64,000 nt of DNA from Glandiceps talaboti (lineage: Eukaryota; Hemichordata; Enteropneusta; Spengelidae), in NCBI RefSeq assembly GCF_964340395.1, contig NC_135549.1:1754501-1818500 (forward strand), read 5' to 3'. Each line of letters opens with the position of its first letter. The first letter of the stretch is position 1. Positions 1,819-64,000 of the stretch are shown one piece after another. The notes under the pieces were generated by a model, which was not told the origin of the DNA, searched no databases, and worked only from the letters and a program-made list of their open reading frames with translations. The position numbers and the translations under genes were made by a program.

Positions 1819-3685
<1,867 letters not shown>

Positions 3686-3863: not shown

Positions 3864-4576
3864 CAGCCAATTTCAAGTTACCGTTCACAGTCTGTTTGAT
3901 ACCAATACAAAACTACTTTATTCTACACTAAGATAGCAAGGTCACAATTTCTTGCTGCATTTTGTCTATTACTGTGAAATATACCATTTAAACCGACGAC
4001 TTGACGCAGACACGCGAGCGCGCGCCAATATACCATTTAAACCAACTGCGACTTGACGCAGACACGCGAGCACGCGCCAATATACCATTTAAACCAACTG
4101 CGACTTGACGCAGACATGCGAGCGCGCGCCAATATACCATTTAAACCGACTGCGACTTGACACAGACACGCGAGCACGCGCCAATATACCATTTAAACCA
4201 ACTGCGACTTGACGCAGACACGCGAGCACGCGCCAATATACCATTTAAACCAACTGCGACTTGACGCAGACACGCGAGCACGCGCCAATATACCATTTAA
4301 ACCAACTGCGACTTGACGCAGACACGCGAGCACGCGCCAATATACCATTTAAACCAACTGCGACTTGACGCAGACACGCGAGTGCGAGCCAATATTTTGG
4401 CGTTTGCATTTGATGTCTACATGGTGGCATTTTAGACCATTTTGTTTAGACAAAATGTATCAAGAAACAGTATTCTTTCAATCTTGCTATCTTAAAGTGT
4501 AGCATGTGCAGTTTCTTATTGGTTTCTGTGTGGTTGTATCAAACAGAGCCTGTGAACGGTAACTTAAAACGGGCTG
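3864..4576. mobile_element. TIR element (TA-type) carrying a 52-bp minisatellite
   Basis: The two ends are inverted copies of each other. The left end starts CAGCC, then AAGTTACCGTTCACAG, and continues past CTGTTTGAT to AAGATAGCAAG. The right end is its reverse complement, ending GGGCTG, so the arms are roughly 85 bp. A TA precedes the left end and CA follows the right, consistent with a worn TA duplication (Tc1/mariner-like). The core is a tandem array with no coding potential. A second family member is at 40270-41991 with a different tandem array. Confidence 0.75.
3981..4396. repeat. 52-bp minisatellite, ~8 copies
   Basis: The unit begins ATACCATTTAAACC and includes GACTTGACGCAGACACGCGA. 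The first copy is 49 bp and the following spacings are 52 bp. Variation is mostly at CG dinucleotides (GCGCGC versus GCACGC). It forms the core of the TIR element 3864-4576. Confidence 0.92.
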
Positions 4577-28171: not shown

Positions 28172-31100
28172 TCACGTTGGTGTCACATAAGTGGCTTCCA
28201 CACTTCCGTTCGTCTCATCTGCAGTAGCAGGAACACTACTGAATGCGGAGATAAAGATATTTATAATAGTGACAAATACAGTACAGTTTTCGCCTAAGCT
28301 CTCGCCTCAATTCGCGTTCGCATCGCTTCAGCTTCGCTTTCGCTTCGCCTCAATCTCAAGTTTACGGGAGTTCGCTTCAATTAAACATCGCTTTCACTTC
28401 GCTTCCTTTTCGCGTTGAGTTCGCATTCGCATCGCACCCCATTCGCATCGCGTCAACTTTGTTTCTGAATCGCATTGTGTGGAACATGCGCTATTATACC
28501 CACATATTTGCATGATAAAGGATTTGAAACGAAAAGTATAGATCATTACGGCTACTAAAATTATGCGGGGTTGTACTTTACTTTTCTGTCTACGGCACGA
28601 TAACCCTTTTGGTTAAATTTGCGTTAATAAATCAGGGCATGCCTTTTGACGCTCCGCTCGCCTACCGCTCGCGCAAATTAAAATCCACGAGAGCGATTTT
28701 CCACTCGCGTGGGCCTCAAACAACCTGTACAACAGCCTGATGTTATTTTATATCATTTTTCAATATGTGGTTACCATAAAAATCAACGTTTATTCGGTAA
28801 AATTACGTGGTGGGAGCGTGGAACACTTCCGTGTTCATAATCGTCGATCTCCAGCTGAAGTCAGCGCTGTCATTCATGACCTATTTATGTATCTGAAATT
28901 TGCATTGTACTACCCTTATATGGGAAAAATAGTGACGTATTCGAAGCGGGACATGCATGATGTCATGGCATATCATGAATATTGATCAGCTCAGTATACA
29001 GGGAGATTTCAACTTTCGCATCATTGCAAATTGCGCAATTACGATTGATACGATGACTGTTTGGAGTTCTCGTTTTCAGCAATCCATCGATGAGTTTAGT
29101 TTTAAATTCCGATCGGCCTAGTTTTGTTAGAACGTGGTTTTGGAGACCATCCTACGTGAATGTCTCCTCCGGAACATGAACAACAACTGCGATTTATAGT
29201 TGCTACACAAAGTACATGTCCAGAGTTCCGACAATAGCTTGGCGATGTTTTGGAGTTTTGAAAGAATGACAGTAAAATATTATACGATTGATTATTTTAC
29301 AAAATAAAAATAAAACTAATCTGTCGATATTTCTCGTGCAGTTTTCAGAGAAATTCCCGGGCTTTTATTTCATAATCTCCAACACGCAGTTTCATTGTTT
29401 TTGTCCGATGATCTATTCAACTGCCGACCACGTCTGTTTTACGGTACCTCCATGACTTTATCGACTGCTGTAACATATAAAATATTTGCTCGAATTTTCG
29501 CCTTGTCGTGATTTCTAAAACAAAGTAGGTCTGCTTCTCAGACATGAACGGATCTCGCTACTTTAGTCGGCGACACCGGTCGTCCGTGTGCAGGTACTAG
29601 GTGGGGTTACGTGTGTTATTGTCTCGGATCGAGTGAATGGTTACAAATTAGTCAAATTAGCAAGCAATTTAACGTCGCATTGCAACTTTAAACAGATGAC
29701 AGCATTACGGTCGTTTCGATAAATTGTCAATTTGGTACGTAGTTTGGCGTTTCGCTACATACTGTTGGACGTTTCACTACATTATTAGCCCATTATATAT
29801 TGCGGTGTTCGTGACCTATGAGGAACGTAGGACATCGTAGTGTACCGGGTTTTCTGCAAAGAGGACTTGTGTTTATCACCACTTTATTTTTGCTCACCAC
29901 TGTGCAATTGCTTTTTCTACATTTGTTAACATGTGTATGTTAGTGGTTTGTACAAAGGGATCGTCCCGTTTGTAAAATCGATTTGACTGGTCATTCCATT
30001 TAATTGTTGTGACAGTTGTGGCCGTGTTCACGGCACCGGCCGACCAACTCTAGCGGGGACGATTTGGTAATTGGGGACAATATAACGCACCACCCCCTAA
30101 TAAATCCATGCATAGAACCTATCTCAGAATTTTGAGTTTTAGGTTTGTAATGTGCGTAACAGCTACAGAATTCACGACGGACAGCAGTGAAAACAGATAT
30201 GCAAATACTGTCACACCTTTCACAGTATCGCTTCACCTTCATTGTTGTTTGACGTGAAGCGACCTTCATTGTTTTTTGATGCGATGCGAACATGAAGCGA
30301 AAGCGAAGCGAAATGACTGCGATGCGAATGCCGTCATGAAGCGATTCCAAGTTACGAAGCGAATTGATTGAAGCGATAATGAGGCGATGCGACTGCGAAG
30401 GCGAAGCGAAGCGAACGCGAAAAATGCGACAGCTTAGGCGAAAACTGTACTGTATGATCATCAAGGTGGCACAGTCATTGAATCTATCGGCAATTCTTTG
30501 GTCCTCGACTTTGTTGATGTCAAGACGAATCTTCACAAAGAGTATCACAGCTGTGGTCAGTTGTAGTGTAATGGATAGTATCAGCAAGGTAACCACTAAA
30601 ACAAAGAAATCTGGCGTCAATCCCATCCAGTGGTGTTGTAGAATTAATTTCAAATGCGATGCATTGGCTGATATCAACGCTAAATCAAACAGTGCTTGGG
30701 TGATGGTCTTTTTACCGGCATACGTATTGGCATCAAAGGCATCTTTCACTGTCGGAGGAACGTCACTATGTTTGGATGAAGCTTGCGAGTGGGCTTCGCT
30801 TGTTTCGGATACATTCTTTAGAAAGGAAGAAAGTGGAAAAAAAACATTGTAATTTGAGAACTAAATTGTAAGCGCGACTTTCACCAAAGTCTGAATAAAG
30901 GAGCAAGGTACATCACATATACATCTCATGTGCAAGGTCTATACTATAACCTTGGTAGTGTGAGTTTACATGTACGTTTTGAAGACATTGTAAAGAAAAG
31001 TAACCATTTGAACAGTAAGCTTACTCCTCGCCATACGGAGTTGGTTGGCAATTATGAACATGTTATAATATCATTTTCATATCGACGCCCGGATGTAAAG

Positions 31101-40269: not shown

Positions 40270-41991
40270 CAGCCCATTTCACATTAGTGTTCACTGGCTC
40301 TATTTCAAATTGATACAATCACGCAGACTTGAACCAACCGCAATAAGAAACTGCACATTCTACACCTTTAATAAGATAGCAAGATTGGACGAATACAATT
40401 TCTGTGACATTTTGCTTAAATAACCTAATGTGCCACTATCAAGTCCTGATGTCACAACATTGGCGTACATGTGTTTGCATCTAGTGTGCCCCTACCAAGT
40501 CCAGACGTCACAACATTGGTGTACATGTGTCTGCATCTAGTGTGCCCCTACCAAGTCCAGACGTCACAACATTGGCGTACATGTGTCTGCATCTAGTGTG
40601 CCCCTACCAAGTCCAGACGTCACAACATTGGCATACATGTGTCTGCATCTAGTGTGCCCCTACCAAGTCCAGACGTCACAACATTGGTGTACATGTGTTT
40701 GCATCTAGTGTGCCCCTACCAAGTCCAGATGTCACAACATTGGCATACATGTGTTTGCATCTAGTGTGCCCCTACCAAGTCCAGACGTCACAACATTGGT
40801 GTACATGTGTTTGCATCTAGTGTGCCCCTACCAAGTCCAGATGTCACAACATTGGCATACATATGTCTGCATCTAGTGTGCCCCTACCAAGTCCAGATGT
40901 CACAACATTGGCGTACGTGTGTCTGCATCTAGTGTGCCCCTACCAAGTCCAGATGTCACAACATTGGCGTACGTGTGTCTGCATCCAGTGTGCCCCTACC
41001 AAGTCCAGACGTCACAACATTGGCGTACATATGTTTGCATCTAGTGTGCCCCTACCAAGTCCAGACGTCACAACATTGGTGTACATGTGTCTGCATCTAG
41101 TGTGCCCCTACCAAGTCCAGACGTCACAACATTGGCGTACATGTGTTTGCATCTAGTGTGCCACTATCAAGTCCAGACGTCACAACATTGGCGTACGTGT
41201 GTCTGCATCTAGTGTGCCCCTACCAAGTCCAGACGTCACAACATTGGCGTACATGTGTCTGCATCTAGTGTGCCCCTACCAAGTCCAGATGTCACAACAT
41301 TGGCGTACATGTGTTTGCATCTAGTGTGCCCCTACCAAGTCCAGACGTCACAACATTGGCGTACGTGTGTCTACATCTAGTGTGCCCCTACCAAGTCCAG
41401 ATGTCACAACATTGGCGTACATGTGTTTGCATCTAGTGTGCCCCTACCAATTCCAGACGTCACAACATTGGTGTACGTGTGTCTACATCTAGTGTGCCCC
41501 TACCAAGTCCAGACGTCACAACATTGGCGTACATGTGTTTGCACTAGTGTGCCCCTACCAATTCCAGATGTCACAACATTGGCGTACGTGTGTCTGCATC
41601 TAGTGTGCCCCTACCAAGTCCAGATGTCACAACATTGGCGTACATGTGTTTGCATCTAGTGTGCCCCTACCAAGTCCAGATGTCACAACATTGGAGTACA
41701 TGTGTTTGCACTAGTGTGCCCCTACCAATTCCAGATGTCACAACATTGGCGTACGTGTGTCTACATCTAGTGTGCCCCTACCAAGTCCAGATGTCACAAC
41801 ATTGGCGTACAAGTGTCTGCATCTAGTTGCAGTTCATGTGCATTTAAATGGTTTATATAATTTAGACAAGATTATTGCATGAAATAACATCTTGTTTTCT
41901 TAACCTGTAGTATATAGATTTTGCAGTTTCTTGTTGGTTTCTGTGTGGTTGTAGCCAACAGAACCAGTAAACACTAACATGAAATGGGCTG
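40270..41991. mobile_element. TIR element (TA TSD) carrying a 56-bp minisatellite
   Basis: The ends are inverted: left CAGCCCATTTCA, CTGCACATTCTACACC and AAGATAGCAAG; right the inverse of CAGCCCATTTCA with GAAACCAACAAGAAACTGCA. TA flanks both ends (40268-40269 and 41992-41993). The ends are homologous to those of 3864-4576, so the two are one family with different cores. No transposase. Confidence 0.78.
40432..41826. repeat. 56-bp minisatellite, ~25 copies
   Basis: Units begin GCATCTAGTGTGCCCCTACC and contain GACGTCACAACATTGG. Most differences are C/T or G/A at CG sites (GACGTC/GATGTC, GGCGTA/GGTGTA/GGCATA). A few units lack two bases. Open frames through it are artefacts. Confidence 0.95.
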
Positions 41992-44983: not shown

Positions 44984-45719
44984 ATTGGATCGTTCACGAG
45001 TACCTTTTGAATGTGACCAAAAATTACGTTATGAATTGGATCGTTTACGAGTACCTTTTGAATGTGACCAAAAATTACGTTATGAATTGGATCGTTTACG
45101 AGTACCTTTTGAACGTGACCAAAAATTACGTTATGAATTGGATCGTTTACGAGTACCTTTTGAATGTGACCAAAAATTACGTTATGAATTGGATCGTTTA
45201 CGAGTACCTTTTGAATGTGACCAAAAATTACGTTATGAATTGGATCGTTTACGAGTACCTTTTGAATGTGACCAAAAATTACGTTATGAATTGGATCGTT
45301 TACGAGTACCTTTTGAACGTGACCAAAAATTACGTTATGAATTGGATCGTTTACGAGTACCTTTTGAACGTGACCAAAAATTACGTTATGAATTGGATCG
45401 TTTACGAGTACCTTTTGAACGTGACCAAAAATTACGTTATGAATTGGATCGTTTACGAGTACCTTTTGAATGTGACCAAAAATTATGTTATGAATTGGAT
45501 CGTTTACGAGTACCTTTTGAATGTGACCAAAAATTATGTTATGAATTGGATCGTTTACGAGTACCTTTTGAATGTGACCAAAAATTATGTTATGAATTGG
45601 ATCGTTTACGAGTACCTTTTGAATGTGACCAAAAATTATGTTATGAATTGGATCGTTTACGAGTACCTTTTGAATGTGACCAAAAATTACGTTATGAATT
45701 GGATCGTTTACGAGTACCT
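44984..45719. repeat. 51-bp minisatellite, ~14 copies, open in two frames
   Basis: Units of ATTGGATCGTTTACGAGTAC plus CTTTTGAAYGTGACCAAAAATTAYGTTATGA. The 51-bp period keeps two plus-strand frames open for 270-292 codons. The variable bases are only AACG/AATG and TACG/TATG, which are CpG transitions. No signal peptide, domain or splice context suggests a gene. Confidence 0.93.
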
Positions 45720-48686: not shown

Positions 48687-49930
48687 TTATATTTTTGAAG
48701 TCTCAAACTGATCTGGGTTATATGGAGGGGGTAGTCTGTATCCTGGTGGTGGGGCATTATAGTCTGGGGGAGGTGTATATGCTGGTGGGGGCATTGCTGG
48801 GTGAGGTGGTAAATCCTGCAATTGGTAGAGTACATCATCAGGAAAGGGAATGTCTACATCAGGGTAGGGTGGTAGTCTGTATGGTGGTGGTGATGGAGGA
48901 CTAGCTTCCTTTATTTCAGGTGGTGGTGGTCTTGGTGGTGGTGATGACAGGAATGGTGAAATGTCATTCTTCAAAATAGCTGGTTGTACTGGTTTCTGCT
49001 TCTCTTTGAGTTCTCGTTCGTCTGGTAAAATAATTGGTCTTCTGTCTTGTACGTACATTGGTTTCTCAGCTCTCAAAAGGAATTTACTTCCCGGGCGTTT
49101 TCTTCGGTACATGTAGCAGGCCAAACAGCCAAGTAGAAGCAATATAATGACAATAACAATAGCTGGAATGACTGCTTTTTCCCATTTAGGCCTCTCGGAT
49201 GACACAGGTATAGGCACAAATACTGAATCAGTTGGTGTTGGTGTAGGGACAGGTGGTCCACATGCTCCGAGTAGCACTTGATCAACTCCAGTGACGATAA
49301 ACTCAGGTTGCATTGCTAGTTGGAATTGCTGTGTCACTTCCCCAGATTTTGAGGTGAACTTAGCATACAGCCTCAGGATTGCATTCAAGTCACACTCATC
49401 AGTTGGGAAAGAGTTATTGGAGAAGGTCCATACTGTTGACCCTTCTGCAATGGAACCAACCGTGATAAACCGACTATCACTATTTCTCTGATACTGAGAT
49501 ACCTTTGATGCGACTTCATAGCGATTCCTTCCTTTAGCCATAAAAGTAGAATAGTCATTCTGAAAAGTGATAACAAACTGGTGCGAAAAGACAACATCAG
49601 GTTCTGGTTGTACAACAATCTCCAATGCATCATGTGCACTTTGCCCGACTGAGTCTCTAGCCAACAGCAAGTATTCAACAGGCCTAGTGGTGTAATCTTC
49701 TGCAAGAGGTACCCCATATATCATCTGTCTACTATCATCAAATTGAAGCCATGATGATTCTAGTAGAGGCTGACCTGACATAGTCAATAGGACAAGTTGT
49801 AAATTTCGAGTAGGACCATCTTCATAGTCATAGAACGCATCAGCTGGTATCATATACTCAAGTACATATCCTACCGTTATGTAGATTTGGTCAATGTGGT
49901 TGATAAGTAATGGTCTTTCATCAACAGCAG
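48687..49930 (-). other. DAG1: Dystroglycan exon 4: second module, TM helix, cytoplasmic tail
   Basis: Begins AVDERPLLINHIDQIY after a TTACTTATGTTACAG acceptor. Encodes the membrane-proximal cadherin-like and SEA-like domains with GSIAEGSTVWTFSNN (cleavage Gly-Ser), the Cys pair 1146/1190, the transmembrane helix IPAIVIVIILLLLGC, and a Pro-rich tail ending PPPYNPDQFETSKI. The tail motif PIILPDE resembles the vertebrate PIIFADE region. Confidence 0.95.
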
Positions 49931-52900
49931 CTGTAACATAAGTAAAGAAGACACATGCAATCACTTGTTATGTCACTTTCAGGGATTCATATCACCTATT
50001 TCATTTTTTCCAACTTCTGGGAAAAAACTGAAATTTTACATTTTACAAATGATTTAACATCAACATGGTAACACTAGTAGTAACAGTAAGCTGAAGATAT
50101 GATGAGAACTCTCATGGTAACACTAGTAGTAACAGTAAGTTGAAGATATGATGAGAACTCTAATGGTAACACTAGTAGTAACAGTAAGCTGAAGATATGA
50201 CGAGAACTCTCATGGTAACACTAGTAGTAACAGTAAGCTGAAGATATGACGAGAACTCTCATGGTAACACTAGTAGTAACATTAAGCTGAAGATATGATG
50301 AGAACTCTCATGGTAACACTAGTAGTAACAGTAAGCTGAAGATATGATGAGAACTCTCGTGGTAACACTAGTAGTAACATTAAGCTGAAGATATGATGAG
50401 AACTCTCATGGTAACACTAGTAGTAACAGTAAGCTGAAGATATGATGAGAACTCTCATGGTAACACTAGTAGTAACATTAAGCTGAAGATATGATGAGAA
50501 CTCTAATGGTAACACTAGTAGTAACATTAAGCTGAAGATATGATGAGAACTCTCATGGTAACACTAGTAGTAACATTAAGCTGAAGATATGACGAGAACT
50601 CTAATGGTAACACTAGTAGTAACATTAAGCTGAAGATATGATGAGAACTCTCATGGTAACACTAGTAGTAACATTAAGCTGAAGATATGACGAGAACTCT
50701 CATGGTAACACTAGTAGTAACATTAAGCTGAAGATATGATGAGAACTCTCATGGTAACACTAGTAGTAACATTAAGCTGAAGATATGATGAGAACTCTCA
50801 TGGTAACACTAGTAGTAACATTAAGCTGAAGATATGACGAGAACTCTCATAGTAACACTAGTAGTAACATTAAGCTGAAGATATGACGAGAACTCTCATG
50901 GTAACACTAGTAGTAACATTAAGCTGAAGATATGATGAGAACTCTCATGGTAACACTAGTAGTAACATTAAGCTGAAGATATAATGAGAACTCTCATGGT
51001 AACACTAGTAGTAACATTAAGCTGAAGATATGATGAGAACACTCATGGTAACACTAGTAGTAACATTAAGCTGAAGATATGATGAGAACTCTCATGGTAA
51101 CACTAGTAGTAACATTAAGCTGAAGATATGATGAGAACTCTAATGGTAACACTAGTAGTAACATTAAGCTGAAGATATGATGAGAACTCTCATGGTAACA
51201 CTAGTAGTAACATTAAGCTGAAGATATGATGAGAACTCTCATGGTAACACTAGTAGTAACATTAAGCTGAAGATATGATGAGAACTCTAATGGTAACACT
51301 AGTAGTAACATTAAGCTGAAGATATGATGAGAACTCTCATGGTAACACTAGTAGTAACATTAAGCTGAAGATATGACGAGAACTCTCGTGGTAACACTAG
51401 TAGTAACATTAAGCTGAAGATATGATGAGAACTCTAATGGTAACACTAGTAGTAACATTAAGCTGAAGATATGACGAGAACTCTCGTGGTAACACTAGTA
51501 GTAACATTAAGCTGAAGATATGATGAGAACTCTCATGGTAACACTAGTAGTAACATTAAGCTGAAGATATGACGAGAACTCTCATGGTAACACTAGTAGT
51601 AACATTAAGCTGAAGATATGATGAGAACTCTCATAGTAACACTAGTAGTAACATTAAGCTGAAGATATGATGAAAACTCTCATGGTAACACTAGTAGTAA
51701 CATTAAGCTGAAGATATGATGAAAACTCTCATGGTAACACTAGTAGTAACATTAAGCTGAAGATATGATGAAAACTCTCATGGTAACACTAGTAGTAACA
51801 TTAAGCTGAAGATATGACGAGAACTCTCATGGTAACACTAGTAGTAACATTAAGCTGAAGATATGATGAGAACTCTCATGGTAACACTAGTAGTAACATT
51901 AAGCTGAAGATATGATGAGAACTCTCATGGTAACACTAGTAGTAACATTAAGCTGAAGATATGATGAGAACTCTCATGGTAACACTAGTAGTAACAGTAA
52001 GTTGAAGATATGATGAGAACTCTCATGGTAACACTAGTAGTAACAGTAAGCTGAAGATATGACGAGAACTCTCATGGTAACACTAGTAGTAACATTAAGC
52101 TGAAGATATGATGAGAACTCTCATAGTAACACTAGTAGTAACATTAAGCTGAAGATATGACGAGAACTCTCATGGTAACACTAGTAGTAACATTAAGCTG
52201 AAGATATGACGAGAACTCTCATGGTAACACTAGTAGTAACATTAAGCTGAAGATATGATGAGAACTCTCATGGTAACACTAGTAGTAACAGTAAGCTGAA
52301 GATATGATGAGAACTCTCATGGTAACACTAGTAGTAACATTAAGCTGAAGATATGATGAGAACTCTCATGGTAACACTAGTAGTAACAGTAAGTTGAAGA
52401 TATGATGAGAACTCTAATGGTAACACTAGTAGTAACAGTAAGCTGAAGATATGATGAGAACTCTCATGGTAACACTAGTAGTAACATTAAGCTGAAGATA
52501 TGATGAGAACTCTCATGGTAACACTAGTAGTAACAGTAAGTTGAAGATATGATGAGAACTCTCATGGTAACACTAGTAGTAACATTAAGCTGAAGATATG
52601 ATGAGAACTCTCATGGTAACACTAGTAGTAACATTAAGCTGAAGATATGACGAGAACTCTAATGGTAACACTAGTAGTAACATTAAGCTGAAGATATGAC
52701 GAGAACTCTCATGGTAACACTAGTAGTAACATTAAGCTGAAGATATGACGAGAACTCTCATGGTAACACTAGTAGTAACATTAAGCTGAAGATATGATGA
52801 GAACTCTCATGGTAACACTAGTAGTAACATTAAGCTGAAGATATGATGAGAACTCTCATGGTAACACTAGTAGTAACATTAAGCTGAAGATATGATGAGA

Positions 52901-55900
52901 ACTCTCATGGTAACACTAGTAGTAACATTAAGCTGAAGATATGACGAGAACTCTCATAGTAACACTAGTAGTAACATTAAGCTGAAGATATGACGAGAAC
53001 TCTCATGGTAACACTAGTAGTAACATTAAGCTGAAGATATGACGAGAACTCTCATGGTAACACTAGTAGTAACATTAAGCTGAAGATATGATGAGAACTC
53101 TCATGGTAACACTAGTAGTAACATTAAGCTGAAGATATGATGAGAACTCTCATGGTAACACTAGTAGTAACATTAAGCTGAAGATATGATGAGAACTCTC
53201 ATGGTAACACTAGTAGTAACATTAAGCTGAAGATATGATGAGAACTCTAATGGTAACACTAGTAGTAACATTAAGCTGAAGATATGATGAGAACTCTCAT
53301 GGTAACACTAGTAGTAACATTAAGCTGAAGATATGATGAGAACTCTCATGGTAACACTAGTAGTAACATTAAGCTGAAGATATGATGAGAACTCTAATGG
53401 TAACACTAGTAGTAACATTAAGCTGAAGATATGATGAGAACTCTCATGGTAACACTAGTAGTAACATTAAGCTGAAGATATGACGAGAACTCTCATGGTA
53501 ACACTAGTAGTAACATTAAGCTGAAGATATGATGAAAACTCTCATGGTAACACTAGTAGTAACATTAAGCTGAAGATATGATGAAAACTCTCATGGTAAC
53601 ACTAGTAGTAACATTAAGCTGAAGATATGACGAGAACTCTCATGGTAACACTAGTAGTAACATTAAGCTGAAGATATGATGAGAACTCTCATGGTAACAC
53701 TAGTAGTAACATTAAGCTGAAGATATGATGAGAACTCTCATGGTAACACTAGTAGTAACATTAAGCTGAAGATATGATGAGAACTCTCATGGTAACACTA
53801 GTAGTAACAGTAAGTTGAAGATATGATGAGAACTCTCATGGTAACACTAGTAGTAACAGTAAGCTGAAGATATGACGAGAACTCTCATGGTAACACTAGT
53901 AGTAACATTAAGCTGAAGATATGATGAGAACTCTCATAGTAACACTAGTAGTAACATTAAGCTGAAGATATGACGAGAACTCTCATGGTAACACTAGTAG
54001 TAACATTAAGCTGAAGATATGATGAGAACTCTCATGGTAACACTAGTAGTAACATTAAGCTGAAGATATGATGAGAACTCTCATGGTAACACTAGTAGTA
54101 ACAGTAAGCTGAAGATATGATGAGAACTCTCATGGTAACACTAGTAGTAACATTAAGCTGAAGATATGATGAGAACTCTCATGGTAACACTAGTAGTAAC
54201 AGTAAGTTGAAGATATGATGAGAACTCTAATGGTAACACTAGTAGTAACAGTAAGCTGAAGATATGATGAGAACTCTCATGGTAACACTAGTAGTAACAT
54301 TAAGCTGAAGATATGATGAGAACTCTCATGGTAACACTAGTAGTAACAGTAAGTTGAAGATATGATGAGAACTCTCATGGTAACACTAGTAGTAACAGTA
54401 AGCTGAAGATATGATGAGAACTCTCATGGTAACACTAGTAGTAACAGTAAGTTGAAGATATGATGAGAACTCTCATGGTAACACTAGTAGTAACATTAAG
54501 CTGAAGATATGATGAGAACTCTCATGGTAACACTAGTAGTAACAGTAAGTTGAAGATATGATGAGAACTCTCATGGTAACACTAGTAGTAACAGTAAGCT
54601 GAAGATATGATGAGAACTCTCATGGTAACACTAGTAGTAACAGTAAGTTGAAGATATGATGAGAACTCTCATGGTAACACTAGTAGTAACAGTAAGCTGA
54701 AGATATGACGAGAACTCTCATGGTAACACTAGTAGTAACATTAAGCTGAAGATATGATGAGAACTCTCATGGTAACACTAGTAGTAACATTAAGCTGAAG
54801 ATATGATGAGAACTCTCATGGTAACACTAGTAGTAACAGTAAGCTGAAGATATGATGAGAACTCTCATGGTAACACTAGTAGTAACATTAAGCTGAAGAT
54901 ATGATGAGAACTCTCATGGTAACACTAGTAGTAACAGTAAGTTGAAGATATGATGAGAACTCTAATGGTAACACTAGTAGTAACAGTAAGCTGAAGATAT
55001 GATGAGAACTCTCATGGTAACACTAGTAGTAACATTAAGCTGAAGATATGACGAGAACTCTCATGGTAACACTAGTAGTAACATTAAGCTGAAGATATGA
55101 CGAGAACTCTCGTGGTAACACTAGTAGTAACATTAAGCTGAAGATATGACGAGAACTCTCATGGTAACACTAGTAGTAACATTAAGCTGAAGATATGATG
55201 AGAACTCTCATGGTAACACTAGTAGTAACATTAAGCTGAAGATATGATGAGAACTCTCATGGTAACACTAGTAGTAACATTAAGCTGAAGATATGACGAG
55301 AACTCTCATGGTAACACTAGTAGTAACATTAAGCTGAAGATATGATGAGAACTCTCATGGTAACACTAGTAGTAACATTAAGCTGAAGATATGACGAGAA
55401 CTCTCATGGTAACACTAGTAGTAACATTAAGCTGAAGATATGATGAGAACTCTCATAGTAACACTAGTAGTAACATTAAGCTGAAGATATGATGAGAACT
55501 CTCATGGTAACACTAGTAGTAACATTAAGCTGAAGATATGATGAGAACTCTCATGGTAACACTAGTAGTAACATTAAGCTGAAGATATGACGAGAACTCT
55601 AATGGTAACACTAGTAGTAACATTAAGCTGAAGATATGATGAGAACTCTCATGGTAACACTAGTAGTAACATTAAGCTGAAGATATGATGAGAACTCTCA
55701 TGGTAACACTAGTAGTAACATTAAGCTGAAGATATGATGAGAACTCTCATGGTAACACTAGTAGTAACATTAAGCTGAAGATATGATGAAAACTCTCATG
55801 GTAACACTAGTAGTAACATTAAGCTGAAGATATGATGAGAACTCTCATAGTAACACTAGTAGTAACATTAAGCTGAAGATATGACGAGAACTCTCATGGT

Positions 55901-58900
55901 AACACTAGTAGTAACATTAAGCTGAAGATATGATGAGAACTCTCATGGTAACACTAGTAGTAACATTAAGCTGAAGATATGATGAGAACTCTAATGGTCA
56001 ATCATTTTGATTTCAATAATTAATTAAATAGTTCAGTTTCTGTTGCAAAACAATTTCTCAACTAGATGTACATTGAAAGTCAATCCAAGTTATATTACAG
56101 GGTTTCTTAATATTATATAATATAACACAAGAAGGGAAGGAAGCCAAACACTTTGTTGATACAAATCAATGGCATAGAAACTGACACTCTACACGGTCAG
56201 AAGTGTACCCTGATAATGTACACATAGAACTGAAGTAAACAACAATATTTATACTTACGTTGTGTTGGTGGCACACTGCTTGAAACAATCACACTAGTAG
56301 ATACAGCTGATGGTGTTGGTGTTATAAATGGTTCTAAACTTGAACTTAAAATGGTTGTACTAAACATAGATGTCACTGGTAATTCTACTGTTGAGCTCTG
56401 TACAATTGACGGTGTAACTATAGGTGTGCTAGTGATGACTAATGGAGTACTTGACACTTCAATGAATGGTGTGCTGGTTATGAACACAGGGATGCTGGAT
56501 GATGTCGGGATGCAGGCATCAAAGACACGTAGCAATACTTCCAGGACTACAAAGTCTGGCATTAATGTATGATTAAAACTGTCTTGTGGATAACCACTAT
56601 CATTTGCCATTCTAGAATACAGTGCAAACACTTGTTCTCTGTCACAAAATACTGGACTCAAGGTAGTATTATGAAATGTGAATTGAGTTGAAGAAGGGTT
56701 GACATAGCTGTCTGCAATCTCATCCACTGCAATGCTGGCTGTGTTTGGATCATTATACAACTCCAGTATTTTCTTAGCTAGGCGATATCTTGTACTGCCC
56801 AGTTTCAAAAACTGTGGATAGCTCAAGTCTAAAGACAGTATAAATTGGTGATTGTATGTTTCATTAACTGGCCTTGGTTTGATGTACACATTGAATGTGG
56901 ACTGTGTGGTTAGTCCCTCTGAGTCAGCAGCTATCAGACGGAACTTGGCTGGAGATAATGAAAGATGTTCTTCCAATGGTATACCATACATTAGTAGTTT
57001 ATCTATGTCAAACTGAATCCATGATCTCTTGGTGAGTGGTAGTCCTGAGATGGTCCTCAAAGAAAGTTGAAGTCGGTCAGTTAGACCTTCCTCTGGGTCA
57101 TAAAATGTTCCTAATGGAACAGTGAACTCTAGTATGTATCCAACTGTTACTTCCAAGTCTTGGACCGGATTAAGGATAATTGGAGGCTGGTTGATGGGTT
57201 CTGAAAATGATTCATAGTGGCATAATTACTAAATAATTAATACAAAATCAGTGCAGAAACCAGAACCAATTAACAGAACTATACATAGTTACATATATGG
57301 CATGCAGTGGTTATAGAATATACATCTACTGCACTTTTTGCAGAACAAATAGCATGTACATTTCACAACTATTTTATTTGAATCTTTTGAAATACAGGTA
57401 TCAGTCCCTGAGCTATGTTATACAACACATGTACTTTCTGTTTTGCATCGGTTTTTCACAGATGTGAATTCAAGTATAATAAATTTTTCAAATATATTTG
57501 GGTAATGAATGATGAGTACTGTAAAATCATGATAATTGTGTTTTGATTAAATAATATAAATATTTACCTGGTGTAGTTGGTATCATGCTGCTTGATACTA
57601 CCGCACTACTGGTTGCTGGTGATGGAGTGGGTGATGGTACTATGGGAGTGCTGCTGACAATGTCAGATGTGATCACAACCTCAGAAGAACTAAATAACAT
57701 ACTGGATGTCAACGCTGGCGTTGGAGTACTAGACAATGGTGGCAAACTGGTCACTTCCATTGTTGGTGTAGGTGTTATGATCATGGATGATGTAACAGGA
57801 AAACTGGTTATCACCGCACTGCTACTTACTTCTGAAGGTGACGGAGAGGGTGATGGAGAGGGGGAAGGTGAAGGTGATGGTGAAGGTGAGGGGGAGGGAG
57901 ATGGTGATGGAGAGGGGGAGGGTGATGGGAGGACGGAACTGCTTGTTGATGTGCTAGAGCTGGTTTCTTCCACGGCTGGAGTTGAAGTCATGACAATGGG
58001 TACTGAAGATGAAGTAATGGAGCTTGTTGAAATGATGGGAATTGAACTTGTACTTGGAGTGGAAATTAACACTGTGCTTGTAGCTGGTAATACTGTCGAA
58101 GTCTCTACTGGTATTATAACAGATGAAGATGGTGTCGACAACAGTACCGATGATGTAGTAGGTACTACAAGGGAACTAGTCTCTGTTATTTCTACAGACG
58201 ATGATATGTCAATGGGAGTAGAACTAACAAGTTCTGGTGTTGAAGTCAGTACTTGGGTGGTTGATACAACTGAACTACTTTCTTCTACTAAAGATGACGA
58301 AGTCTCAACTACAACTGAGCTACTGGTTTGTTTTATGATTGACGATGTCAGAATCACTGGTGATGATGATTCCAATAAAAATGTGGTTGTTTCTATAGGA
58401 GGAAGGGTTCTTGTTAAAGTGACAGTTGCAATGGTAGAGCTAGTACTTGGTTTGAGACTTGAACTTGTGGCAGCAGGAATACTTGATGACATAGCAATAG
58501 TACTTGTAGACACAAGAGCTGTTGGAGTGCTGACAGTTACTGTAGGTGTAGGCATAGGAGTACCAGCTAGGCCTGCCTGTATTTGTCGCTTCTTTCTCAT
58601 TACTGGATCTTCTCTAGATTTCTTCATTGAAATATGCCAACCAATGACTGGAAACCCGATGACATCTGTCAGTCTGCCACTTTTTGCATTGTGCTCAATC
58701 ACCATCGAAAAGTCTTGTACTTTTTTGAACAGTCCACAACTAAGCTGCCAAGAGATTTCAATGCCCCATGCATTCCTCAAAACATTCTTTGGATCGGCAT
58801 TACCAGGACCGGCTGCTAGAACTGAATTGTCCAGAAGTTGCCCTATCACAGCACTTTTCCTGTTTGTCAATGTTAAAGCACTTGAATCCACAGAAAGAAA

Positions 58901-60214
58901 GTCTGCTAATAAAGTGAGTAAATTAACTCGTTGTACTCCACTCAGTTTAGTTAAATCACAGTCTACAATTAGTGTTGCTAATGTTCTCTGTGTACCTGGG
59001 TTGCACTTTTTAGGAGTCCTACTATGCAGATTTTGATTATCTTTCTCATAATCCTTCAAGGGTACAGCTCTAACCGGGTTCAAAGGTGACCCGGCATAAG
59101 TCAATGATTGGTCATTATCAAACAACCTTACATCCAATAAGAAAATGTCAGTGACAGTTCTTGATAATTTCTTATCATATCCACTGGCAGCTGTTACACT
59201 TATGTATGTAAAGCCTTCATCCTTCACAAGAGGAACTCCATATAAAGTGTTGGTTTTATTATCAAACTCCAACCATTTTGGAAGTTTATCACTTCCTGCT
59301 TCTGTTACCTGGGTAGAAGAATTAAGACAAAGAAAAGTAATGAAATCTTAGCATTCATGCACAATGAAAATTTTAGTTTTATCCTCTAACCGAAGCAATT
59401 CAAGAAATTCTGTACACATGACATGTATAACACTTTTGTTTTTAATCTATTATCAAACTCCAACCATTAAAAATTTAAAAATGAGAATTAGTAAGTTTTA
59501 TCACAAAACTACCATATAATAAAGTCTATCATTCCTGCTTCAATGAGCACCTAATTAATGAAAAGATATTAGAATGACTATGAAAATATTAGCATTCGTA
59601 CACAATGTGCATCTGTCTAATTTTTATACTGCTGGTATCCTTTACTCTAAAACCCATCAGATTAAAGAGGAAGAGATTCTTATTACAGATTACAAAAAGG
59701 TGTTTTATTAGGCCTAAAAAAAAAATAATTGTTTGGTCCCGGTTACCGACCCCACCTAGCTTTTCACTGCCAACCCTAAACTGTATTTTACATAATTGAG
59801 AGAAAAAAAAATAAAATTGCAAAAATTGCAATATATATATATTAAAGCATATATATATATACAATGTCAGACCACTATATTCTTTTAGTGGTCTGAGGTA
59901 CAATATATTATGTATTTATACACAATGACAAAAGTGAGGTCTGGTTACTGAATCCAAAAATGATTCTTCTCGATTCAAAATATTTGTTTTTGACTCACCC
60001 TGTAATATGTCACATTTCCTTTGAAAGCACCTTTTAGAGGCAAAGTGTACTTGAAAACCTTGCCAACCACAGTATGTACATCTGGTAAACCATTCAAAAT
60101 TGTTGGTCCATCATCTGATTGTTCTTTACTCACTGAAGAGGCTGATGGCCAGCACCAGGCAACATGTATTATAAAAATAATAAGTTTGATATGTGAATAT
60201 TTAAAATTTGCCAT
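48687..60214 (-). CDS. DAG1: Dystroglycan, complete, four coding exons
   Basis: Extracellular matrix receptor linking laminin-type ligands to dystrophin. Exons: 59999-60214, 57568-59308, 56259-57200, 48687-49930 (4,143 coding bases, 1,380 residues, phases 0, 1, 1). Order: signal peptide (about 1-25), cadherin-like domain (35-135), S6-like alpha-DG N-domain (174-304) with AGPGNADPKNV, furin site RKKR at 310-313 followed by QIQAG and TPMPTPTV, Ser/Thr/Pro mucin region (324-652), a first cadherin-like plus SEA-like module (665-883), a second one (970-1190), transmembrane helix (1220-1240), RRKR, and a tail with five PPxY motifs for dystrophin WW binding. The autoproteolysis Gly-Ser is kept in the second module (1130-1131). 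Vertebrate dystroglycan is about 895 residues with one membrane-proximal module, so this form is enlarged. No transcript confirms the model. Confidence 0.93.
49931..56258 (-). other. DAG1: Dystroglycan intron 3, mostly minisatellite
   Basis: A phase-1 intron of 6,328 bases, 94 percent of it the 49-bp array. The remaining ~400 bases flank the splice sites. Confidence 0.9.
50065..55993. repeat. 49-bp minisatellite, 121 copies
   Basis: Units of ATGGTAACACTAGTAGTAAC, then AKTAAGYTGAAGATATGAYG and AGAACTCTM. First and last starts (50065, 55994) differ by exactly 121 x 49, so there is no net length change. Variants are confined to a few positions. Shared variant patterns recur 1,813 bases apart (37 units), and again 735 bases apart (15 units), which shows block duplications inside the array. 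Confidence 0.97.
56259..57200 (-). other. DAG1: Dystroglycan exon 3: first (extra) cadherin/SEA-like module
   Basis: Flanked by phase-1 introns on both sides. Encodes PINQPPIILNPVQDLEV, a cadherin-like domain (YILEFTVPLGTFYDPEEG, MYGIPL), a SEA-like domain with its Cys pair (838/882), and a short Ser/Thr/Pro stalk. Where the other copy has EGSTVWTF this one reads PSSTQFTF, so the autoproteolytic Gly is absent. Confidence 0.93.
57568..59308 (-). other. DAG1: Dystroglycan exon 2: alpha-DG N-domain and mucin region
   Basis: Acceptor TTCTTCTACCCAG. Completes the first cadherin-like domain (WLEFDNKTNTLYGVPL), encodes the S6-like domain, the RKKR furin site, and about 330 residues of Ser/Thr/Pro including a run of about 17 Ser-Pro pairs. 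Donor GTAAAT. Confidence 0.94.
59711..59795. mobile_element. Partial copy of the GGCCTA-ended MITE
   Basis: TTA followed by GGCCTA, an A-run and TTTGGTCCCGGTTACCGACC, matching one end of 46730-47093. The other end is missing. It lies in dystroglycan intron 1. Confidence 0.55.
59999..60214 (-). other. DAG1: Dystroglycan exon 1: signal peptide
   Basis: 72 codons from MANFKYSHIKLIIFI, a hydrophobic signal peptide ending near CWPSA, then PDVHTVVGKVFKYTLPLKG, the start of the first cadherin-like domain. Donor GTGAGT in phase 0. The start is the first ATG of the open frame. Confidence 0.88.
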
Positions 60215-61952
60215 TGTTGTCAGCTTGACTGAATCTCTGGATGTGGTATATCCTTTCCTGACATTGTATTCTTCTTTACATGTCCATTACAGGATCTAAC
60301 CTTGTTGGTGATTTGAGATCCAATCATTCAATTGAGGATACATCATCATCAATGTTTAGCTTCTTGGCATTATGTGTGTCCAAACTTCTTGGAATCTGTG
60401 CACAGAAATGGGAAAAAAATGAACACTACAGAATCTATGTCTTAATTGTCAAGATTTATTGTAGATCTAACAGCTGATTTATTATTTGCATGACATGTCA
60501 CATGGGAATGTACTGTCAACAAATTTATTCAACATTAAATATTAGCAGAAAGAAATATTTTTGGCCTTTGGTGCTACTTTTTAAAATTTGTAGTCAATTT
60601 GATGATTTATTCTGGCTTTGACAAGATTAGTAGACATAGATTTGATGGAATATATTACTGTTAATTTTAAGAGCACACAATTTGTTTACCAAAGGTTTGC
60701 ATTTGGTGTCTCAGTCAAGAAAACATTGACTTTAAATAATACTTTCACTTATTCTGTAATTTTATAACAATAGACTGCTGTATGTTGATAACAAAGAATA
60801 AGTGTCACTTTTCAAAACAAGTCACAACATGTTAAAAAGTTAAAGAATTTAGCACAAGAAGTGTCCTATTGTTACCCAAATAATTCCGCCATTTAAATCT
60901 CCTTCGAATATACCTGTGTTGGGGCATTTCAGTACCGTACGAAATCATAAATATTCGATAGTATTGTATTCATCGTTGCTATTCTAACCACACCTAACAT
61001 CAAATCTAGCATGCTATGAGTCATAACTATCCCTCCCTTCACTTGAAACGCGAATATTGTGTACATGTTTATTTACTTTCACTTGTTGCAAAATGATAAT
61101 ACCAAAAACACCGTTAAATTATTATGCAATCTCATAAAAACCACCACTCTGTTGCGCAAAACATTTAGATATTTGAAGATACCACGCATTCAAGACAAAT
61201 TCCGTTGCTATAGATACCCAAACATTCTAAGAGAGATAAATTGCAGTCATATTTACGTACCTTTTACTCAGCCGCCAGCTAGCGTCAGTTACCCTTGTCG
61301 AGGATTTCACCTTAGCGGTAAATTTACCCATCATGCTATATAACTACATCGGGATGCAGTATTGTGTAACTATCATTGACTGTAGACGAAGGTAGCTATT
61401 ACAGTTGTCACATGAGCTATTTAACTGTAATCTTATATTGATAAATATTGTAATTATGAATTTTAAAGCATTGTACAATACAATATCGAAAAAAAAGTAT
61501 TTACCATGTACCCAGTCACAGCGGCCGACACCATAACGCTTTGCGTTTGGGGAAAGAAAACACAAACAATTAAGCGCGCAATGGCGGCCTACTACGATTT
61601 TGCAGACAACTTTAGCATGCATCGTTACGAATCCGAGGTGTAGATTTGATGTGGAATGACCGTAGTGTTTTACTAAATCTCCCTCTGTTGGGGTATCGAT
61701 ACTGAAGTGTCACTGTGTGTACATGTAGCTGTAGGCCAAGCCCAAACTGTACTAGTACTGTACTGTACTCCATGATCCAGGGGATTGAACCTCAGCTCAT
61801 TGTGTTTATGACTAGTTCACTGTACATACATGTGTCAGTGATACAACGTTATCGTCGTACCCCTACTATCTTTGCAAAAATAGTGTGGACGGTCATTCCA
61901 CATCTATGGCCTAATCTTGAACCTTTGATTAGAGAACTTGACGTTATCAAAT
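60215..61952. promoter_or_regulatory. Head-to-head intergenic region of dystroglycan and SET-SLOG gene
   Basis: 1.7 kb separate the two divergent start codons. The segment 61500-61640 is richer in CG and includes GCGCGCAATGGCGGCC. A minus-strand TACATG/GTAAAT at about 61506 could be the donor of a dystroglycan 5'UTR exon. No TATA box is obvious. A shared CpG-type promoter is plausible but unproven. Confidence 0.4.
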
Positions 61953-64000
61953 ATGGACATGACAGATGTGTGTAAAGGCGAAGAAAATATATCGGTTCAT
62001 GCAGAAAATTTTGTTGATGGTGAATATTTACCAGAGATAAAGGTTGGTTAGCAGGTTGTTCATGTTGTTAGTCTTTGTATTTGATAGTACATGACATTTC
62101 AAGCAGCACAGTTTGACATGCATTTATAATCTTAGCAAAGTATGGAGTAACCTGTTTATGGTGAATGACTGACTCCAATAACTTACATTGTGTTGTATAT
62201 GAGAGATTACAAGGTATCACTAGACCACTTTCAACAGGCTAGTACATAAAAATAGGTTAGGGAGTGATTTGACATAGGTTTTGCAAGACTTTATATTTGA
62301 AGAAAAAGTGATTAATTTTACCAGATATGTACCATTGTGACCAATCTGATTAAAATCCGATGTAGATGTCGGCTAATCATTCATTGCTATTTTACCTTTG
62401 TTATTTTGCTTGAATTGACCTTCGTAGTACATGTTTACGTTTTTAGCTCGATCATCTCCTCTGCATCTGAACATGCGCCCATACAAACGAATTTCAGTTC
62501 ACTGAGCCACACATGCAGTATAAATAGACATACATGTAGCTTGCTCACCAACAAAAACAGTAAAACTCTCTCTCATTCAATTTTTCAGTACACCCCATTC
62601 AATGTGACAGGACCAGGATGTGAGTATGATCCATGTGAAGTAATGTATGCAGGTTGTGAATGTCAACAAAAGTCTTGTGGTGATGACTGTCCATGCATAC
62701 AGCGATCCCTAGGTCAAAGTTATGATGACAAGGGGTGTCTTCTGTCTTCCTCCCAGACTAATTCTAACAGTAAACCAGTACTAGAATGCAACAGTTCTTG
62801 TACATGCAGCACGTTGTGTACAAGCAGAGTTGTACAAAATGGGATCAAGTTCAGGGTAGAGGTCATTCGCACAGAACAGAAGGGATGGGGCCTCAAAGCT
62901 CTGGAGAATATTCCTAGAAATCGGTTTGTGTGTGAGTATGCTGGGGAGGTGCTGGGTTACAAGGAAGCACATAGAAGAGCTGTCAATATGACTGAGGATG
63001 ATCCTAATTATATTCTGATCTTGAAGGAACATTTACAGAATGGGAAAGTTATAAAAACCTGTGTTGATCCAACATATGTAGGCAATGTTGGTAGATATAT
63101 TAACCATAGCTGTGATCCTAACTTGTATATGGTTGCTGTGAGAATTGATAATGAAGTCCCAAAGTTGGCTCTCTTTGCAAAACGTGAGATTTTGGATGAG
63201 GAAGAGTTGAGTTTTGACTACGCAGGAGGCATCAATGAAATAGACATCAATGAAATGAACACTTTATGTGATGATACACAAAGTTGCAATGAAAGTGACA
63301 CAATGTGTGCAGAAGAAAATAGCAAGTACAAAAGTAGTAGTAGTACAAAAACTGCAAATATCAAGTCAATTAAAAGTCCTAACAAGCCATGCTACTGTGG
63401 TGCTGATGCATGTAGAGGACTCTTGCCATTTGATAGTGAACTTTATGCTGAGCTTGACGTTCAGAATGCTAGTCAAGCAGAAGTTGAAAATGGTGAAGCC
63501 GAAAATGAACAGTTCTTGAAAGGGGAAAATGATGATGATTATGATTTGTGGAAAGACGAACTTCCCAATGATATTTTCCTACAGCTTACCAGTCAACTGG
63601 AAACCAAATATGAGGGCGCTATGTATGTGAATCATTCTGGTGGTGCACTTGGCAGTGACTTGTTTTGGCAAAAAATAGGTTGTAAATATGGAATTCGGAC
63701 ACATGCTTATTCATTTGAAGGTCACAGTCAGAATAACCCAGCAAGGGTAGAACTGAGTAGCCAAGACTTGAAACAAGCTGATGTACATGTACACAAAGCC
63801 AATAAAGTTTTACATCGGATCTTTCCAACACAGAGTAACTTTATCAATAATCTGTTGAGGAGAGACTGGTTTCAAGTTAGAGATACAGAGTGTGTGTTTG
63901 CAGTTGGTAAAATCACAAAGAACAGGAGAACAGTGGAAGGAGGCACAGGTTGGACTGTTCAAATGGCCGTCGATGAAAGAAAACCTGTGTATGTTTTTGA
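61953..64000 (+). CDS. SETMAR: SETMAR-type histone methyltransferase fused to a SLOG-like domain (3' partial)
   Basis: Exon 1, 61953-62042, encodes 30 residues (MDMTDVCKGEENISVHAENF) and ends at GTTGGT. Exon 2 starts 62589 after TTTTTCAG and is still open at the window end, 500 residues so far. Pre-SET Cys cluster at about 40-105, SET domain at about 117-245 with KGWGLKAL, FVCEYAGEVLG, GRYINHSCDPNL and EELSFDYAGG, then a ~45-residue Ser/Asn-rich insert and post-SET CYCGADACRG near 297. All cofactor and catalytic motifs are present. The closest family I know is SETMAR's SET half (H3K4/K36 methylation reported). After a short acidic linker the frame enters HSGGALGSDLFW, VHKANKVLHR, LLRRDWFQVRD and VEGGTGWTVQMA ... 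KPVYVFD, the pattern of a SLOG/YspA-type nucleotide-binding Rossmann domain. There is no mariner transposase. Confidence 0.88.
62043..62588 (+). other. Intron 1 of SET-SLOG gene with MITE end
   Basis: A phase-0 intron. At 62342-62363 it carries the same 22-base end (CAATCTGATTAAAATCCGAT...) as the palindromic MITE at 38837. A second end is not visible. Confidence 0.7.

Follow-up and report, generated by a model that had tools for sequence, protein, structure and literature searches.

The window analysed here is a stretch of 64,000 nucleotides from the hemichordate Glandiceps talaboti (contig NC_135549.1, positions 1,754,501 to 1,818,500). One gene at its right end, on the plus strand, joins a SETMAR-type lysine methyltransferase and a SLOG domain in one reading frame. 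Exon 1 (61953..62042) codes MDMTDVCKG..EIK, forms the start of the gene model P0042 and aligns with the Ptychodera SETMAR protein P0047. A GT at 62043 begins intron 1 (62043..62588, GT..AG), which is supported by the sequence and by P0042. The pre-SET and SET domains follow in exon 2 (62589..63304; Pfam SET at about 62883-63221), and next comes a 72-nucleotide in-frame GT..AG stretch with a poor pyrimidine tract (63305..63376). The post-SET cysteines and the conserved SETMAR C-terminus LPFDSELY (63384..63446) were delimited by alignment with Ptychodera, Saccoglossus, Branchiostoma and other proteins that end shortly afterwards. The frame continues through an open, coding-like acidic linker (63462..63611) into most of a circularly permuted SLOG domain (63612..64000), recognized by its similarity to the phage family phrog_768 and to coral-like proteins (see below) and by the match of a coral homologue's model to the 3imk fold. 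From 62589 to the window end at position 64000 there is no stop codon, and beyond LPFDSELY the frame runs into the motifs GGALGSD, LLRRDWFQVRD, GGTGWTVQMA (preceded by VE) and KPVYVF. This bears out an earlier reading made from the sequence only, which had described one frame passing from pre-SET, SET and post-SET into these SLOG motifs. The C-terminal part of SLOG lies past 64000. Its end is supplied by P0042, a protein database entry of 541 residues that is the gene model of the window's gene, carries both domains, ends in ...GIGTRDLPERGKAAIREVFMKTFGH and lies on a contig of 35,921,338 bases. Up to position 64000 the sole difference between P0042 and the open frame is the omission of 63305-63376, which keeps the frame. 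This segment is the only enumerated intron that reproduces P0042, and its in-frame codon log-odds of -0.13 are non-coding-like. The frame is thus continuous as the sequence-only reading had it, but SET and SLOG are not strictly “fused in one exon” in P0042, because the model splices these 72 nucleotides out. A separate stand-alone start for SLOG may also exist inside the exon. The architecture and domain identity of the fusion are very probably as described.

The joined frame goes beyond what chance would give. With a codon log-odds model trained on the SET and SLOG parts, the linker region 63450-63629 scores 0.345 per codon in frame and -0.278 and -0.849 in the other frames, next to in-frame values of 0.334 for SET and 0.317 for SLOG, which are the training parts themselves. 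A 53-codon linker stretch (63462-63620) remains free of stops in 2.3% of Markov resamples and in 6.5% of equally long windows taken from 59500-61900. No repeats were found around the SET-SLOG junction. Contamination or an assembly join is unlikely because SLOG is in frame with the SETMAR exon, has relatives in corals and is present in P0042 on its 35.9-Mb contig. The two parts might still seldom occur in one protein if alternative splicing, early polyadenylation or an internal promoter separated them. Potential signals for this exist (AATAAA at 63801, ATTAAA at 63369, and the modelled 72-nucleotide intron with its poor acceptor tract), but the absence of a stop codon between SETMAR and SLOG, the coding-like codon usage of the linker and a gene model joining both halves make such a separation very unlikely. 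Homology of the linker to the N-terminal extension of the coral proteins finds no support: 137 of 500 shuffles were equally good in a local test, as were 637 of 5000 (35 residues) and 1295 of 5000 (first 30) when the comparison was anchored.

By its sequence, the SET half is of the SETMAR type, as had been proposed. The 470-residue in-window part of exon 2 matches Pfam SET with an E value of 3.9e-22, and its best match among PDB sequences is human SETMAR (3bo5, E 1.8e-79). The pre-SET score is 28.9 bits in this part, just below the 29.1 cut-off, and rises above it in P0042 (35.4 bits). The post-SET cysteines are present and the NHSC and ELSFDY motifs are conserved; the half is a putative lysine methyltransferase. 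A search for SET relatives matched 296 proteins of 258-822 residues, of which the best 120 were examined. Most named entries among them are SETMAR, a few being “hypothetical” or “SET domain-containing”, and the nearest SETMAR proteins listed are those of Ptychodera flava (61% identity), Branchiostoma belcheri (52%) and Saccoglossus kowalevskii (52%), followed by two further Branchiostoma proteins (49-50%), a ranking that points to an enteropneust hemichordate. Besides P0042, only two of the 120 are longer than 380 residues, namely P0060, in which the primate protein is fused to a transposase, and P0086, which is extended at its N-terminus. The annotated Ptychodera (306 residues) and Saccoglossus (325 residues) proteins end shortly past post-SET. 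A query with the SLOG part, restricted to this range of lengths, left 5 of 149 candidates: P0042, P0046 and three coral-like frames, all but P0042 having no precomputed Pfam domain. The SLOG fusion therefore looks specific to this lineage within the proteins searched, since annotated proteins of relatives are SET-only and P0042 alone is fused among the SLOG matches. Pfam finds pre-SET and SET but no channel domain in P0042, NCBIfam gives only a weak match of its SET region to AnkI/LegAS4, far under cut-off, and nothing for SLOG, and PADLOC detects nothing in P0042 or in the coral protein P0007.

The SLOG half matches phrog_768 with an E value of 6.4e-11 (in-window part). In the alignment its motif order is permuted, with the GGxxGxD half first and the GIGTR half last, and rotation of the domain yields a Pfam DprA match in three of four proteins (E 1.6e-4 for the window domain, 0.014 and 0.1), none of which reaches the cut-off. 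In native order the window protein gives no linear DprA match, and the best of 31 relatives has an E value of 5.9e-4. Four of the 31 relatives match PF12694 below cut-off (best E 0.11); the domain is cpYpsA-like but not a member of the Pfam family. The model of a coral homologue matches 3imk in Foldseek (E 1.1e-3, root-mean-square deviation 6.0, TM score 0.39 by query), a structure of the PF12694 family, and has a Rossmann-like SLOG fold. The SLOG assignment made from sequence motifs thus stands, and a structure prediction unlike SLOG was not what the coral model gave, but the motifs prove to be those of a circularly permuted, cpYpsA-like form. DprA, LOG and YpsA chains are absent from the fold matches shown, an absence that carries no weight because the fold is permuted. 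A profile of the SLOG alignment retrieved no SLOG chain from the PDB sequences, the best of eight matches being the NOD1 CARD (E 0.0074). The catalytic motif of LOG phosphoribohydrolases is PGGxGTxxE. The corresponding position reads EGGTGWTVQ in the window and EGGTGWAVQ in the coral-like sequences shown, so that binding is favoured over LOG-type hydrolysis, as the catalytic signature is lacking.

A stand-alone SLOG query found 40 of 45 candidate proteins. Twenty-eight of them have 222-255 residues, are 54-63% identical to the in-window part and cover 86-98% of it; the other twelve have 176-202 residues. The only organisms named among the 28 are Dendronephthya gigantea and Montipora foliosa, and the remaining 26 are termed coral-like because they group with these two. 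Over the domain, identity to the window's SLOG is 52-56% for 15 coral-like sequences, 45% for crAss-like and 30-43% for the others. Outside animals, tblastn matched SLOG in 61 of 50,697 phage records and in no plasmid record, two scans of IMG/VR yielded 14 and 15 loci with at least one contig common to both, and 84,980 prokaryote species genomes contain at least two distant relatives (25-26% identical), a lower bound because the scan used one peptide pattern. Among 34 loci (L001-L034), a set without deduplication (Pylas accounts for three, and several more are nearly the same as one another), 19 carry SLOG in a stop-to-stop frame or annotated gene longer than 1,000 residues. In crAss-like phage cr113_1 SLOG occupies residues 4063-4200 of the 4,328-residue gp38. 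In a Pylas protein annotated as virion RNA polymerase it lies at residues 984-1112, and the best stretch of that polymerase family starts at 1099. The giant proteins with SLOG at loci L022, L004, L007, L034 and L035 include these two and a 2,331-residue protein with a virion-structural PHROG. These forms differ from the typically stand-alone viral SLOGs of a published survey (PMC9503650). Crassvirus virions carry large polymerase-associated proteins as cargo, whose ejection into the host has been proposed (PMC10172136); cr113_1 gp38 is a candidate for such cargo.

Stand-alone phage forms lie beside or near thymidylate synthase, one gene away from NAD synthetase in Atu_ph07, and beside a deoxynucleoside monophosphate kinase in Phosso; in Caulobacter phage Cr30 the neighbouring genes encode a subunit of a recombination endonuclease and a homologue of T4 gp47. 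The Cr30 neighbourhood, the DprA-like annotation of the phage relatives and the DprA match of the rotated window domain (E 1.6e-4) would suit a SLOG half that acts, as in DprA, as a nucleic-acid tether aiming the methyltransferase at DNA and involves no sensor. A jumbo-phage survey that calls members DprA/Smf and suggests binding of single-stranded DNA (PMC7824862) also favours this possibility, and the transposase part of human SETMAR, which directs the methylase to DNA (PMC6326780), offers a parallel. The DprA-like label is, however, a homology annotation only, and the fold match is a putative molybdenum carrier and not DprA, with the reservation that a linear aligner is handicapped by permutation. 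We consider such a tether unlikely.

The ancestry of SLOG was addressed with phylogenetic trees. In a tree of 73 sequences (without P0023, P0024 and eight duplicate or overlapping loci; L014 was dropped as split) the window and 29 coral-like sequences form one clade with support 97/97. An animal ancestry shared with anthozoans is likely on this sequence evidence, through either repeated loss of an old animal gene or transfer between animals. The immediate source of the domain appears to be an animal gene also present in anthozoans and not a fresh bacterial transfer. Its remote source is probably a phage-type gene, since the animal SLOG lineage has phage proteins as its outside kin. The capture of a foreign domain suggested by the sequence-only reading agrees with the fusion and with the SET-only relatives, but the nearest named non-animal kin are phages, not bacteria.

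We propose that a SETMAR orthologue lost its stop codon in one hemichordate lineage and became fused, via the acidic linker, to a complete permuted SLOG. The SET half would methylate lysines as other SETMAR proteins do, and SLOG would be the sensing or targeting half of the enzyme, binding a small adenine nucleotide, for which an ADP-ribose- or NAD-derived molecule is the leading candidate. By a change of oligomer state or shape it might then gate or place the methyltransferase. Because the SLOG fold often binds nucleotides, a small ligand may steer the enzyme. A YpsA-like clade contains most viral SLOGs, for which action on ADP-ribose derivatives, or sensing of them, is predicted; some are joined to nucleic-acid enzymes, in which they are putative sensors (PMC9503650). 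The SLOG-bearing ThsA is activated by isomers of cyclic ADP-ribose (PMC11204291), and for the SLOG of TRPM an ADP-ribose site has been reported (PMC13143021). Judged by these analogies, ligand-dependent control is possible, at somewhat under even odds. A more specific form of it is rather unlikely: a phage-type SLOG, domesticated as the ligand switch of a methyltransferase acting on lysines of chromatin or of proteins, would couple an NAD- or ADP-ribose-derived signal of infection, stress or DNA damage to methylation, the family concerned residing, in some phages, within giant virion-type proteins which may reach the host at infection. SLOG could alternatively be a passenger with a task of its own, to which the fusion gives a promoter and a partner while the halves have no influence on each other. 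The stand-alone coral homologues, the long acidic linker and the finding of a single fused protein among the five SLOG-search matches are compatible with this; the loss of the stop codon and the coding-like linker speak against it, and we regard a mere passenger as improbable.

The whole account, that is a lineage-specific fusion of a shared animal SLOG of phage-type origin that yields a ligand-gated methyltransferase, is given a probability of about 45%. A number of observations weigh against it. When five phage records were added and 16 sequences thinned, the resulting 62-row tree placed the window in an unresolved fork with the long sequence P0041 and phage L041 and did not recover the animal clade. 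Holding the animals together costs 2.6 log units in this tree and is not rejected (p-AU, approximately unbiased test, 0.434), and grouping the window with two crAss sequences is weakly rejected (p-AU 0.042). The animal clade returns (100/99.7) in a 55-row tree from which seven long or poor sequences including P0041 were removed, a selection made after seeing the 62-row tree. In place of the possibly bacterial origin of the captured domain, an animal gene shared with anthozoans emerges as the likely immediate source in the 73- and 55-row trees, and the 62-row tree leaves the source unresolved. No Foldseek match has an E value of 0.001 or better. The full-length fold of P0042 failed over the SLOG half (mean predicted local distance difference test score, pLDDT, 57.0), on which it is silent, apparently because MAFFT aligned SLOG rows with SET columns, as seen in a sister alignment. 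No second fused protein besides P0042 occurs among the five SLOG-search matches. P0042, predicted from that very DNA, is not independent of the open frame; the joint frame is seen in DNA and in a gene model, and one mRNA with both halves is a prediction.

If the fusion is as described, foreign domains have been added to the C-terminus of SETMAR on two occasions or more, with a transposase in primates and with SLOG here. These gains suggest that this small methyltransferase has repeatedly accepted modules for targeting or sensing. The sequences also reveal an animal branch in a SLOG family whose other members found here are nearly all from phages, and the fusion is a concrete protein for asking if a lysine methyltransferase can be controlled by a nucleotide ligand. 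The open-access literature searched contains no paper on a SETMAR-SLOG fusion or on SET and SLOG in metazoa, only a TRPM paper for SLOG in cnidarians, nothing on point among the matches listed for cpYpsA or its horizontal transfer to animals, and nothing on virion RNA polymerase with a DprA-like domain; the one paper matching SETMAR in hemichordates concerns, by its listing, piggyBac PGBD5. The word SETMAR is absent from the main text excerpted from a hemichordate genome paper (PMC11175523).

The rest of the window carries other gene families and repeats. Three dystroglycan-type frames on the minus strand (48690-49964, 56200-57156 and 57530-59272) have serine/threonine-rich and SP-repeat segments and match DAG1 (E 8.8e-13 and 4.9e-9) and alpha-dystroglycan N2 (E 4.1e-20). 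Between such frames a 49-bp unit is repeated in tandem about 121 times (50064-55998; 97% matches), with a strong strand asymmetry. Ninjurin-family frames are found on the minus strand at 1822-2376 and 30003-30749 (E 6.8e-30 and 1.3e-21). Minisatellite arrays with 43-56 bp units occupy 2610-3495, 3978-4395, 40425-41827 and 44984-45719, and in two of the four more than one frame is open and repetitive.

The fusion can be compared with five known systems. The closest group by domain sequence is the anthozoan stand-alone SLOG of Dendronephthya gigantea (LOC114515684, P0007, 255 residues) and Montipora foliosa (P0029, 224 residues), 55% and 53% identical to the window domain over 190 columns, which unlike the window gene has no SET domain. 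The phrog_768 “DprA-like” proteins (crAss-like cr113_1 gp38, Klebsiella phage Pylas and jumbo-phage forms) have the same permuted SLOG but are encoded by phages, stand-alone or within proteins of thousands of residues. The cpYpsA group of putative molybdenum carriers (PF12694; 3imk) shares fold and permuted motif order, with a sequence too distant for a confident Pfam match. TRPM MHR1/2 (LSDAT) likewise combines an animal SLOG with a functional domain of another kind (PMC13143021), compared here by description, its partner being an ion channel instead of a methyltransferase. Finally, anthropoid-primate SETMAR (SET and Hsmar1 transposase, P0060) has a related SET half and, as the sequence-only reading had noted and comparison with P0060 confirms, a foreign domain at the same C-terminal end, but there a mariner transposase was joined in place of SLOG, in a separate event and in another phylum.
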